A stretch of 64,000 nt of DNA from Afipia birgiae 34632 (lineage in GTDB: Bacteria > Pseudomonadota > Alphaproteobacteria > Rhizobiales > Xanthobacteraceae), in contig NZ_HG326652.1 of NCBI RefSeq assembly GCF_000308295.2, positions 739,420 to 803,419 on the forward strand. The letters are read 5' to 3'. The position numbers and the translations under genes are program-made. The stretch's first letter is position 1. Every line of letters begins with the position of its first letter. The notes beneath the pieces are model-generated. The model was not told where the DNA came from. It saw only the letters and a program-made list of their open reading frames with translations, and did not search any database. Shown here piece by piece: positions 25,745 to 49,071 of the stretch.

Positions 25745-27046
25745 TCATACATGTTCATAGACGGTGCGGCCGTCAACAATGGTGCGCGCGACGCGGCCGC
25801 TGAACCGCGCTTCGTCGAATGGCGTGTTCTTGCACTGGGACTTGAGGTCCGCCGGATCGAGCACCCAAGGCGTATCCAGATCGATCACGATCACGTCGGC
25901 GGGCGACCCCGGACGCAATGAGCCGCCGGGCAGGCCAAGCAGTTCGGCGGGGCGGGTGGACATGGCGCGAATGAGTGTCTTGAGGTCGATTTCGCCGGAG
26001 TGAACGAGACGTAGACCTGCCGACAGCATAGTCTCCAGGCCGATGGCGCCGGCGGCAGCTTCGGCAAACGGCAGACGCTTCACCTCGACGTCCTGCGGGT
26101 TGTGATCCGACATGATGACGTCGATCAGGCCCGAGGCGAGGGCGGCGACCAGCGCGGCGCGATCCTGTTCGGTGCGCAGCGGCGGCGACAGTTTCAGGAA
26201 GGTGCGATAGGGGCCGATGTCGTTTTCATTCAGCGCGAGATGATTGATCGAGGCTGAGGCGCTGACCTCGAGACCGGCGTCCTTGGCGCGCTTGAGAACG
26301 TCGAGCGAGTCGATGCAGGTGAGGGAAGCTGCGTGGTAACGTCCGCCGGTCAGCGCCACGAGGCGCATGTCGCGCTCCAGCACCATGGCCTCGGATGCAT
26401 TGGGAATTCCGAACAGGCCAAGCCGCGACGCGAACTCGCCTTCGTTCATCACGCCTTCGCCGACAAGGTTCGGATCTTCGGTGTGATGGACTATCAGCGC
26501 GTCGAAATCGCGGGCATAGGTCAGCGCGCGGCGCATCACCAGCGCGTTCATCACGCTTCTGTCACCGTCGGTGAAAGCGACCGCGCCGGCCGCCTTGAGC
26601 AGGCCGATCTCGGTCATTTCCTCGCCCTTCATGCCCTTGGTCAGTGCGGCCATGGGATGAATGTTGACGATGGCGGTATCGCGGGCGCGGCGGAGGATGA
26701 AATCCACCGTCGCGGAATTGTCGATCACGGGCTTGGTGTCGGGCTGGCAGACAATGGTGGTGATTCCGCCCGCAGCTGCTGCGAGGCTCGCGGACGCAAA
26801 GGTCTCGCGATGGCCTGCACCTGGCTCGCCGACGAAGGCGCGCATGTCCACGAGGCCTGGGGCCACGACCTTGCCGGCGCAATTAATAATGTCTGTGCCT
26901 TCGGGCACGCCGGCTGCGCCGATGCCGCGCCGTGCATCGCGAATGGTGCCGTCGGCGATCAGCACATCGCCGGGGCCGTCGAGATCCCGCGACGGATCGA
27001 TCAGGCGGGCGTTGGCGAGGAGGATGGGGCGGCGGTCTGTTCTCAT
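25745..27046 (-). CDS. pyrC: Dihydroorotase homologue (PyrC type, probably non-catalytic PyrC')
   Basis: 433 residues of the dihydroorotase/amidohydrolase family, with LLANARLIDPSRDL at the start, NHLALNENDIGPYRTFLKLSPPLR in the middle and SDHNPQDV. The metal-binding HxH motif is absent: where active enzymes have DxHxHxREPG this protein has DMRAFVGEPG (residues 67-76), and the later CHVST histidine is also missing. It therefore resembles PyrC'/PyrX, a structural partner of aspartate carbamoyltransferase. A separate active dihydroorotase is expected elsewhere. A long hairpin ends directly at its start codon, and pyrB lies upstream. Confidence 0.88.
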   Translation of the reverse strand: MRTDRRPILLANARLIDPSRDLDGPGDVLIADGTIRDARRGIGAAGVPEGTDIINCAGKVVAPGLVDMRAFVGEPGAGHRETFASASLAAAAGGITTIVCQPDTKPVIDNSATVDFILRRARDTAIVNIHPMAALTKGMKGEEMTEIGLLKAAGAVAFTDGDRSVMNALVMRRALTYARDFDALIVHHTEDPNLVGEGVMNEGEFASRLGLFGIPNASEAMVLERDMRLVALTGGRYHAASLTCIDSLDVLKRAKDAGLEVSASASINHLALNENDIGPYRTFLKLSPPLRTEQDRAALVAALASGLIDVIMSDHNPQDVEVKRLPFAEAAAGAIGLETMLSAGLRLVHSGEIDLKTLIRAMSTRPAELLGLPGGSLRPGSPADVIVIDLDTPWVLDPADLKSQCKNTPFDEARFSGRVARTIVDGRTVYEHV

Positions 27047-27122
27047 CTCGTGTCCCGGTTCTGGCGTTCGTATCCCTTTTCAGCGGCTGCTCTTACGAAC
27101 GCCAGAACCAAAGGGACACGAG
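27047..27122. repeat. Long hairpin abutting the pyrC start codon
   Basis: The left arm at 27047-27072 (CTCGTGTCCC then GGTTCTGGCGTTCGTA) pairs over 26 bases with the right arm at 27094-27122, with one 3-base bulge (AAA) and a 21-base loop. In the minus-strand transcript the 3' arm ends at the base just before the pyrC AUG, so any ribosome-binding site is inside the stem. It may be an inserted palindromic element or a translational control hairpin. Confidence 0.85.
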
Positions 27123-27136
27123 TATCCATAATTGTT

Positions 27137-27213
27137 CTGGTGCGCTTTTGAATGCGAAGTTCCTGAAAGAACTCGCCGCATCGGCCGCAGGAACTTCGCA
27201 TTCAGCGCACCAG
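27137..27213. repeat. Long hairpin abutting the pyrB stop codon
   Basis: CTGGTGCGC (27137-27145) and GAATGCGAAGTTCCT (27150-27164) pair perfectly with AGGAACTTCGCATTC (27189-27203) and GCGCACCAG (27205-27213), with an internal loop of 4 and 1 bases and a 24-base apical loop. The right arm ends at the base next to the pyrB TAA. Only 14 bases separate it from the second hairpin at 27047-27122. Confidence 0.85.
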
Positions 27214-28167
27214 TTACGCGTTGGGCAGGTTGCGGGCGAGCGCTTCAAGCACCGCCATGCGCACCGCCACACCCATTTCGACCTGTTCGCGGATCAGCGA
27301 CTGCGCGCCGTCCGCCACGATGGAGTCGATTTCGACGCCTCTGTTCATTGGCCCGGGATGCATCACCAGCGCTTCGGGCTTGGCATAGCCGAGTTTCTTC
27401 TGGTCGAGCCCGTAATAGTGGAAGTATTCCGAACTCGACGGCACGAATGAGCCGTTCATGCGCTCGCGCTGCAGCCGCAGCATCATGACGATGTCCGCGC
27501 CGTCAAGTCCTTCGCGCATGTCACGCGCCACCTCGACACCCATGCGCTCAATGCCGGGCGGCAACAGCGTGGAGGGCGCAACCACGCGCACGCGAGCGCC
27601 CATGGCATTGAGCAGGATGATGTTGGAGCGCGCGACCCGCGAATGCAACACGTCGCCGCAGATCGCCACCAGCAGGCCCTCAATGTGCCCCTTGTTGCGT
27701 CGGATGGTGAGTGCGTCAAGCAGTGCTTGCGTCGGGTGTTCATGCGCACCGTCGCCGGCATTGATGACCGAACCGTCGACTTTCTGGGCGAGCAGTTCCA
27801 CCGCGCCGGACGCATGATGCCGTACCACCAGAATGTCCGGGTGCATGGCGTTGAGCGTGATCGCGGTATCCATCAGCGTCTCGCCCTTGCGGATCGAGGA
27901 GGACGACACCGACATGTTCATGACGTCGGCGCCAAGCCGCTTGCCCGCGATCTCGAACGAGGACTGGGTTCGCGTCGAGGCTTCGAAGAACAGATTGACC
28001 TGGGTGCGGCCGCGCAGATTGGTGCGCTTCTTGTCGACCTGCCGGTTCAGTTCGACGAACTCTTCGGACAGGTCCAGAAGGCCGCTGATGTCGGCCGCGG
28101 AAAGGCCCTCGATGCCCAGCAAATGCCGGTGTCCGAGGACAAAACTCGATTTCGATGCAGTTGTCAT
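27214..28167 (-). CDS. pyrB: Aspartate carbamoyltransferase catalytic subunit
   Basis: 317 residues from ATG 28167 (frame open to 28206). It has the carbamoyl-phosphate site [13 protein letters not shown] near residues 57-69, [11 protein letters not shown] near 140-150 and the C-terminal [12 protein letters not shown]. It condenses carbamoyl phosphate and aspartate in pyrimidine synthesis. It lies upstream of the PyrC-like gene; no regulatory subunit PyrI is nearby, consistent with the class A ATCase that assembles with a dihydroorotase-like partner. Confidence 0.96.
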
Positions 28168-28305
28168 TAAAGCAAGAGCTATAGGCAGACTTGCCCGGGG
28201 GAGCAAGGCGGATTCGGCGGTTGCGGAGTTTTCCCCCGCTCATGTCCGGGCAGGGTAAACGGGTCGAAAGCGTGCTGTGGAACATTGCACCTATCGTATT
28301 TTCGC

Positions 28306-48869: not shown

Positions 48870-48908
48870 TCGCAATCGCCTAATGGCGATTACGACCTGA
48901 ACTAAAAG

Positions 48909-48942
48909 AACCCCCGGCAGGAAACTGCCGGGGGTTTTTTTT
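48909..48942 (+). terminator. Intrinsic terminator after the porin gene
   Basis: CCCCCGGCAG (48911-48920), GAAA loop, and CTGCCGGGGG (48925-48934) followed by eight T residues. A canonical Rho-independent terminator 40 bases after the porin stop. Confidence 0.93.
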
Positions 48943-48965
48943 GTCTGAAGTGCAGGACGTTCTCT

Positions 48966-49035
48966 CCGCTCATTCCCGCGAAAGCGGGAATCCAGCACCT
49001 CAGGAATGGGTCCCCGCTTTCGCGGGGACGAGCGG
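48966..49035. repeat. 70-base palindromic element with two stem-loops
   Basis: CCGCTC (48966-48971) pairs with GAGCGG (49030-49035). Inside are ATTCCCGC-GAAA-GCGGGAAT (48972-48991) and TCCCCGC-TTTC-GCGGGGA (49011-49028). The structure and sequence match a dispersed repeat found in Rhodopseudomonas/Nitrobacter-type genomes. It lies between the porin and the hydrolase gene. Confidence 0.75.
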
Positions 49036-49071
49036 AGCAGCTGCCAGCTACCGTCGAGAATGGTGATGGGG

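Follow-up and report, generated by a model that had tools for sequence, protein, structure and literature searches.

The spacer between pyrB and pyrC in Afipia birgiae covers positions 27047-27213 of the window (the whole 64-kb stretch of DNA that we analysed) and measures 167 bp from the pyrB stop to the pyrC start on the minus strand. Upstream of it, pyrB occupies 27214-28206 on the minus strand as an open reading frame from a TTG at 28206 (our pyrB searches used a 317-aa reading that starts at 28167), and its TAA stop lies at 27216-27214. Downstream, a frame at 25745-27046 on the same strand encodes a pyrC-type dihydroorotase of 433 aa, with its ATG at 27046-27044. Both genes take their names from the first-pass annotation and lie outside the element described here.

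The spacer is filled by two hairpins. Hairpin 1 (27047-27122, minus strand) adjoins the pyrC ATG and has an outer arm of 10 bp, a 3-nt bulge at 27110-27112 (AAA on the plus strand, TTT on the minus), an inner arm of 16 bp and a 21-nt loop, while hairpin 2 (27137-27213, plus strand) adjoins the pyrB stop and has an outer arm of 9-10 bp, a 3-nt bulge on its 5' side (TTT), an inner arm of 16-17 bp and a 22-nt loop. A 14-nt linker, TATCCATAATTGTT, separates them at 27123-27136. The spacer contains perfect inverted repeats at 27057-27072/27094-27109 (16 nt) and 27149-27165/27188-27204 (17 nt), and its predicted fold reaches -99 kcal/mol compared to -49.6 +/- 4.2 for shuffled sequences (z = -11.9; none of 200 shuffles was as stable). 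The stop and start codons are adjoined exactly by the two hairpins, and the ten bases 5' of the pyrC ATG are paired within hairpin 1.

This architecture largely agrees with the first-pass annotation, which had described two long bulged hairpins that share a design of outer arm, one-sided bulge or internal loop and inner arm, are joined by a 14-nt linker and end at the bases beside the TAA and the ATG. Of the pairing it gave, 26 bp and 24 bp, the first value holds and the second is slightly low, as both hairpins pair over 26 bp. It had not noticed that the bulges of both hairpins face the linker, which makes the hairpins inverted versions of one design. When scored with R1, a covariance model of one hairpin, hairpin 1 gave 82.1 bits and hairpin 2 gave 70.5 bits, both being among the 15 sequences from which the model was built. 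Rfam searches of the window at gathering thresholds returned one tRNA only. Elsewhere in the window, two more inverted repeats lie close together (48901-48944 and 48964-49037), one followed by a T-run and terminator-like, the other GC-rich and REP-like.

A double hairpin dispersed through the genome

When we searched the A. birgiae genome (G000; 5.33 Mb in 5 contigs) with the spacer, we found ten further nucleotide matches with identities of 69-75%, including one of the element to its own reverse strand, and the seven that were retrieved all fold as the same hairpin pair. With R1, at least 110 matches were listed, representing at least 109 places and at least 74 sites; these matches were picked by hand from 144 rows, with opposite-strand duplicates left out and one locus, L226, counted twice. 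Copy numbers here and below are lower bounds, R1 having scored up to 150 candidates per genome in A. birgiae, the same-genus genomes and the sister species G006, and 16-19 in the family and class surveys. Once the double count is mended, 35 sites carry two separate R1 matches, and at 34 sites the two stand in minus/plus order, 11-14 nt apart. At most single-match sites, folding reveals a partner hairpin with other stem sequences. Altogether, the double inverted hairpin is present at 69 of the 74 sites (67 parsed by script and 2 by eye), the remaining five being truncated, fused or single. The earlier suggestion of two inserted palindromic elements therefore stands as to an inserted palindromic element, but not as to two independent insertions, since nearly every site carries both hairpins.

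The elements are uniform in build and diverse in sequence. Among 73 of them (L189 was left out), length ranges from 154 to 173 bp and identity to the nearest neighbor has a median of 0.86 and a maximum of 0.91. The window copy reaches 0.73 with its nearest relative in the genome, the lowest value among intact elements, and only the five truncated, fused or single elements fall below it. Within the 133 hairpins scored (of 140 parsed), 3297 pairs are Watson-Crick, 109 are G-T and 88 are mismatched, and the 3-nt bulge is kept in 117. GANTC, the CcrM site, is about fourfold denser in the 73 elements than in their flanks (10.1 vs 2.3 per kb), with 122 occurrences against 46 in shuffles, a comparison in which subfamily copies are not independent. 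At least one GANTC is found in 57 of the 73 elements and none in the window copy, and the 114 that could be placed fall mainly in stems (93), with 16 in linkers and 5 in loops.

The stems of the A. birgiae elements form several paired subfamilies with a single architecture. In an alignment of 15 hairpins, 96.8% of cells pair, and this falls to 27-35% when partners are slid by 1-3 columns as a control. Two-sided change is seen in 15 of the 23 pairs, including the terminal pairs, which covary within individual hairpins, and the 339 cells comprise 58 two-sided changes, 2 one-sided changes and 11 unpaired cells. The covariation score was reached by none of 500 shuffles, which related sequences can exceed. 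Between genomes, the window copy shows 69-76% identity over at least 100 nt in a set of 29, rising up to 84% only over 56-80 nt, and 16 of the 29 have a match at E up to 1e-6. Its type of outer arm is present in genome G028, in nine copies with 88-96% mutual identity and 70-72% identity to the window copy. The conserved feature is the hairpin pair, not a fixed sequence.

The element is also widespread. At E up to 0.001, R1 matched all 29 same-genus genomes. In the family survey (E up to 1e-6) it had matches in 27 of 41 genera and 109 of 244 genomes, of which 23 belong to the genus itself, and in the class survey (E up to 1e-5) in 16 of 289 genomes, A. birgiae included. Ten of the 11 class loci from other families parse as double hairpins with linkers of 11-14 nt, and the one that does not, L438, lies near a contig end.

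The pyrB-pyrC junction and probable insertion sites in relatives

PyrB was found in all 29 same-genus genomes, A. birgiae included. One of these genomes, G009, matches Afipia sp. Root123D2 without a difference over 3951 bp. The spacer measures -1 to 16 nt at 25 of the 29 loci, compared to 167 nt in A. birgiae; another locus, L098, has a 138-nt spacer that holds a different repeat, and L102 and L116 are the two junctions without a readable spacer. Six same-genus loci share TGA AGCAC ATG, a 5-nt spacer, with no element remnant, and because of this shared spacer, insertion at pyrB-pyrC is likely, rather than loss in the relatives. In the sister species, pyrB is about 95% and pyrC 90.5% identical to the A. 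birgiae genes at the DNA level, which makes the insertion a recent one by this measure. The first-pass annotation had proposed aligning this region in close relatives and searching both hairpins genome-wide, and had held that an ordinary short spacer in relatives together with scattered copies would mark the hairpins as merely mobile repeats; both were found.

In a wider set of pyrB loci, junctions were read at 23 of 80. Different repeats occupy the pyrB-pyrC spacer in other lineages (L012, L018, L021 and L098). By eye, the 28-nt spacer of Bradyrhizobium sp. ARR65 (L017) resembles a deletion remnant of such an element, and the pyrB stop beside it reads TAG.

We tested 20 joined sites for empty junctions in relatives (15 from A. 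birgiae and 5 from genome G069). Junctions were read for 10 A. birgiae sites, from 20 of 30 loci, and for no G069 site. The empty sites align base for base with the occupied ones. The relative's tetranucleotide is CTAG at only two sites (L182 and L142), and the others read by eye as CTGG, CTCG, CCCG, CTTG, CTGA, TTAA, CCAT, ATAG or ATCA, CGCG and AGGG; at L197, L223, L235 and L240 the junctions were read and no clear four bases were seen. At L178 and L222, and in two relatives at L236, deletion remnants in the relatives point to loss of the element. In G069, both ends can be read in six near-identical young copies, all of which are bounded by CTAG at either end, and at L352 an element adjoins another through a common CTAG. 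The empty sites suggest insertion at CTAG-like tetranucleotides, where a target duplication is inseparable from the element's own CTAG-like ends.

Taken as a whole, the pyrB-pyrC spacer is very probably a copy of a bipartite DNA repeat that is dispersed, non-autonomous and probably mobile and that inserted here recently, and not a switch dedicated to the pyr genes. In kind, the best reading is that it is MITE/REPIN-like. The element spans about 160-170 bp. In each hairpin of the inverted pair, the outer arm measures 9-10 bp, the inner arm about 16 bp and the loop about 22 nt, and the 3-nt bulge faces a short AT-rich linker. Its insertion would be precise, with CTAG-like tetranucleotides as targets, and a recent ancestor of this strain would have received it in an operon spacer of about 5 nt. 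We infer that it moves as DNA, with a transposase supplied in trans that would read the hairpins. The RNA hairpins may influence translation of pyrC passively in this strain, which would be a side effect of the insertion.

Several observations count against the mobile-repeat reading: the searches described below found no mobilizing enzyme, the window copy has no close source among the genomes compared, and relatives hold the deletion remnants noted above. As a reason for the missing source, we considered hypermutation at insertion and set it aside; the young G069 copies are near-identical and G028 holds nine similar copies with the same outer arm, so an unsampled source is the simpler explanation.

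Selection, transposase and arm copying as alternatives

Whatever their origin, the elements may instead be putative functional host structures held by selection, such as mRNA 3'-end protection, barriers to ribosomes or polymerases, or protein-binding sites. This is possible, though we consider it somewhat unlikely. Flanks of the A. birgiae elements were placed on 79 G006 stretches (of 81 sites, two of which lay inside others); 25 sites matched, 13 had a gap of 150-200 nt, and 11 of these were analysed. Two of the 13 were left out: L142, where the relative has an empty site with a different element next to it, and L187, where the hairpins are swapped. At the 11 sites, stems differ at 3.7% of positions (40/1084), unpaired parts at 14.4% (103/715) and flanks at 9.0% (292/3236), so that stems change about fourfold more slowly than unpaired parts between the two species. 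By arithmetic from the same counts, the figures without L179 and L183, which diverge most, are about 3.2% for stems and 10.6% for unpaired parts. Slower stem evolution at fixed sites is unexpected of a purely selfish repeat. The G006 stretches were, on the other hand, selected by model matches, which favors intact stems even though one surviving hairpin of two sufficed. Decayed copies are seen at L183 and L209. In 49 cases an open frame stops at an element, and in 23 of these the frame end and the element end are 0-3 nt apart, a count from heuristic reading frames, some closed by the element itself, that has no random control. Against a host role stands the high turnover, with other sites empty or holding remnants between close relatives.

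At L187 and the corresponding G006 locus, L334, the same site carries its hairpins in swapped positions in the two sister species (identity 0.71 direct, 0.89 inverted), which reflects an inversion or a second insertion.

No gene for a RAYT (Y1_Tnp) flanked by these hairpins was found in the A. birgiae genome, whose single Y1 transposase (PF01797) match (L259, around 1300-1950; C3:244949-245284) is flanked by GTAG-type REP sequences that by eye are unlike the double hairpins. Nor did we find an insertion sequence with these hairpins as its ends among 30 DDE_3 loci in seven genomes and a few single-hairpin sites of A. birgiae. IS630-type insertion sequences target TA in CTAG, and the element could accordingly be a MITE of an IS630/Tc1-type transposase, a reading that fits its CTAG-like targets and termini and the shared CTAG at L352. 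TA termini are listed for several bacterial MITEs in PMC2229807. We nevertheless find this derivation doubtful. The ends of the 14 IS630-type copies that we inspected, all in genome G065, differ from the hairpin ends, and these insertion sequences only land in the hairpin CTAG, which would make them visitors and not its parents. Moreover, the terminal pairs covary within hairpins, which target duplication would not give, and CTAG is the tetranucleotide found in relatives at two sites only.

By eye, 11 of the 14 G065 copies have an end exactly at a hairpin CTAG (L363, L369, L372, L375, L382-L384 and L386-L389). In this genome, the double-hairpin repeats act as insertion hot spots for IS630-type insertion sequences.

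Stems could also be kept perfect with no selection at all, through replication template switching that copies one arm onto the other, a mechanism described in PMC8794818. The great excess of two-sided over one-sided changes between subfamily members would follow from it. Symmetric copying, however, predicts two-sided changes about as often as reversions, whereas among the 542 pairs at the 11 shared sites 28 changed on a single side (9 of the 28 involve G-T) and 6 on both, and stem differences among the six young G069 copies are one-sided. The rate of change at unpaired positions, the frequent retention of the 3-nt bulge and the lack of a clear loop inversion in the 13 pairs inspected also argue against arm copying, which we judge improbable.

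An RNA switch coupling pyrB and pyrC had been offered by the first-pass annotation. A dedicated switch of this sort, controlling pyrC in relation to pyrB as an attenuator or as a coupler of translation, can be dismissed as extremely unlikely: very stable hairpins do adjoin the stop and start codons and pair the bases before the ATG, but the short spacers of most same-genus loci mean that they are not conserved at the locus, the same element occurs at no fewer than 73 other sites in this genome, and the spacer has no Rfam match at gathering thresholds.

With the mobile repeat as the favored account, the element is ordinary in kind and unusual in how far its sequence changes while the fold is kept. 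A broader and speculative idea, which we put forward with little confidence, is that it belongs to a family of mobile double hairpins spread across the alphaproteobacterial class, whose members would inherit the fold alone; stems would diverge freely in paired steps, and selection at each site would keep the fold after insertion, turning a mobile repeat into a standing structural part of an operon. Our findings remove a tempting but false regulatory story for pyrB-pyrC. What takes its place is a family of abundant repeats that, in genomes of alphaproteobacteria, could easily be taken for riboswitches, sRNAs or terminators. Because stems and loops change at different rates at shared sites, it becomes testable whether such hairpins are kept by selection or by arm-copying replication errors, or only seem to be kept while they are young.

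Comparison with known repeat families

Bru-RS elements of Brucella are dispersed palindromic intergenic repeats of alphaproteobacteria that serve as hot spots for insertion sequences, and both they and the Rhizobium intergenic mosaic elements (RIME) are about 105 bp long. Compared by description, the double-hairpin element resembles Bru-RS in hosting IS630-type insertions in G065. It likewise resembles RIME (PMC2573895), which are also palindromic repeats scattered over the intergenic regions of alphaproteobacteria. Br-REP1 and Br-REP2 of Bradyrhizobium are dispersed palindromes in related bacteria, but the consensus sequences printed in PMC5082802 do not by eye resemble the arms of our element.

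The REP/REPIN system with its RAYT offers a parallel in that two inverted hairpins form one mobile unit. According to PMC3733652, its hairpins are 20-40 nt long with a GTAG or CGTC tag, whereas those described here are about 77 nt with a CTAG-like foot and no such tag. Membership in this system was ruled out by the hairpin size, the lack of a tag and the location of the sole Y1 match in A. birgiae beside other repeats. The MITEs RUP, Correia/NEMIS and ERIC, as presented in PMC2229807, share a length of 100-200 bp, a non-autonomous nature, TA termini and stable RNA hairpins with our element; they form one stem by pairing of both ends, whereas here each half folds on itself. Among open-licence papers, as far as their accessible text extends, no description of this double-hairpin element was found.

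The CcrM-associated intergenic repeats (CIR; Chen and Shapiro 2003, as described in PMC2229807) are about 110 bp long and highly conserved, with GANTC at or near a terminal loop. Like our element, they are alphaproteobacterial and intergenic, with TA termini and a linker between two long inverted-repeat arms, an arrangement of arms and linker that we found at 69 of 74 A. birgiae sites and at 10 of 11 class loci. Unlike CIR as described there, our element is longer (154-173 bp), diverse in sequence, and carries GANTC mostly in its stems. We do not claim CIR membership, because the length differs and GANTC is absent from the window copy and lies mostly in stems elsewhere; compared by description, these repeats are the closest to the double-hairpin element.
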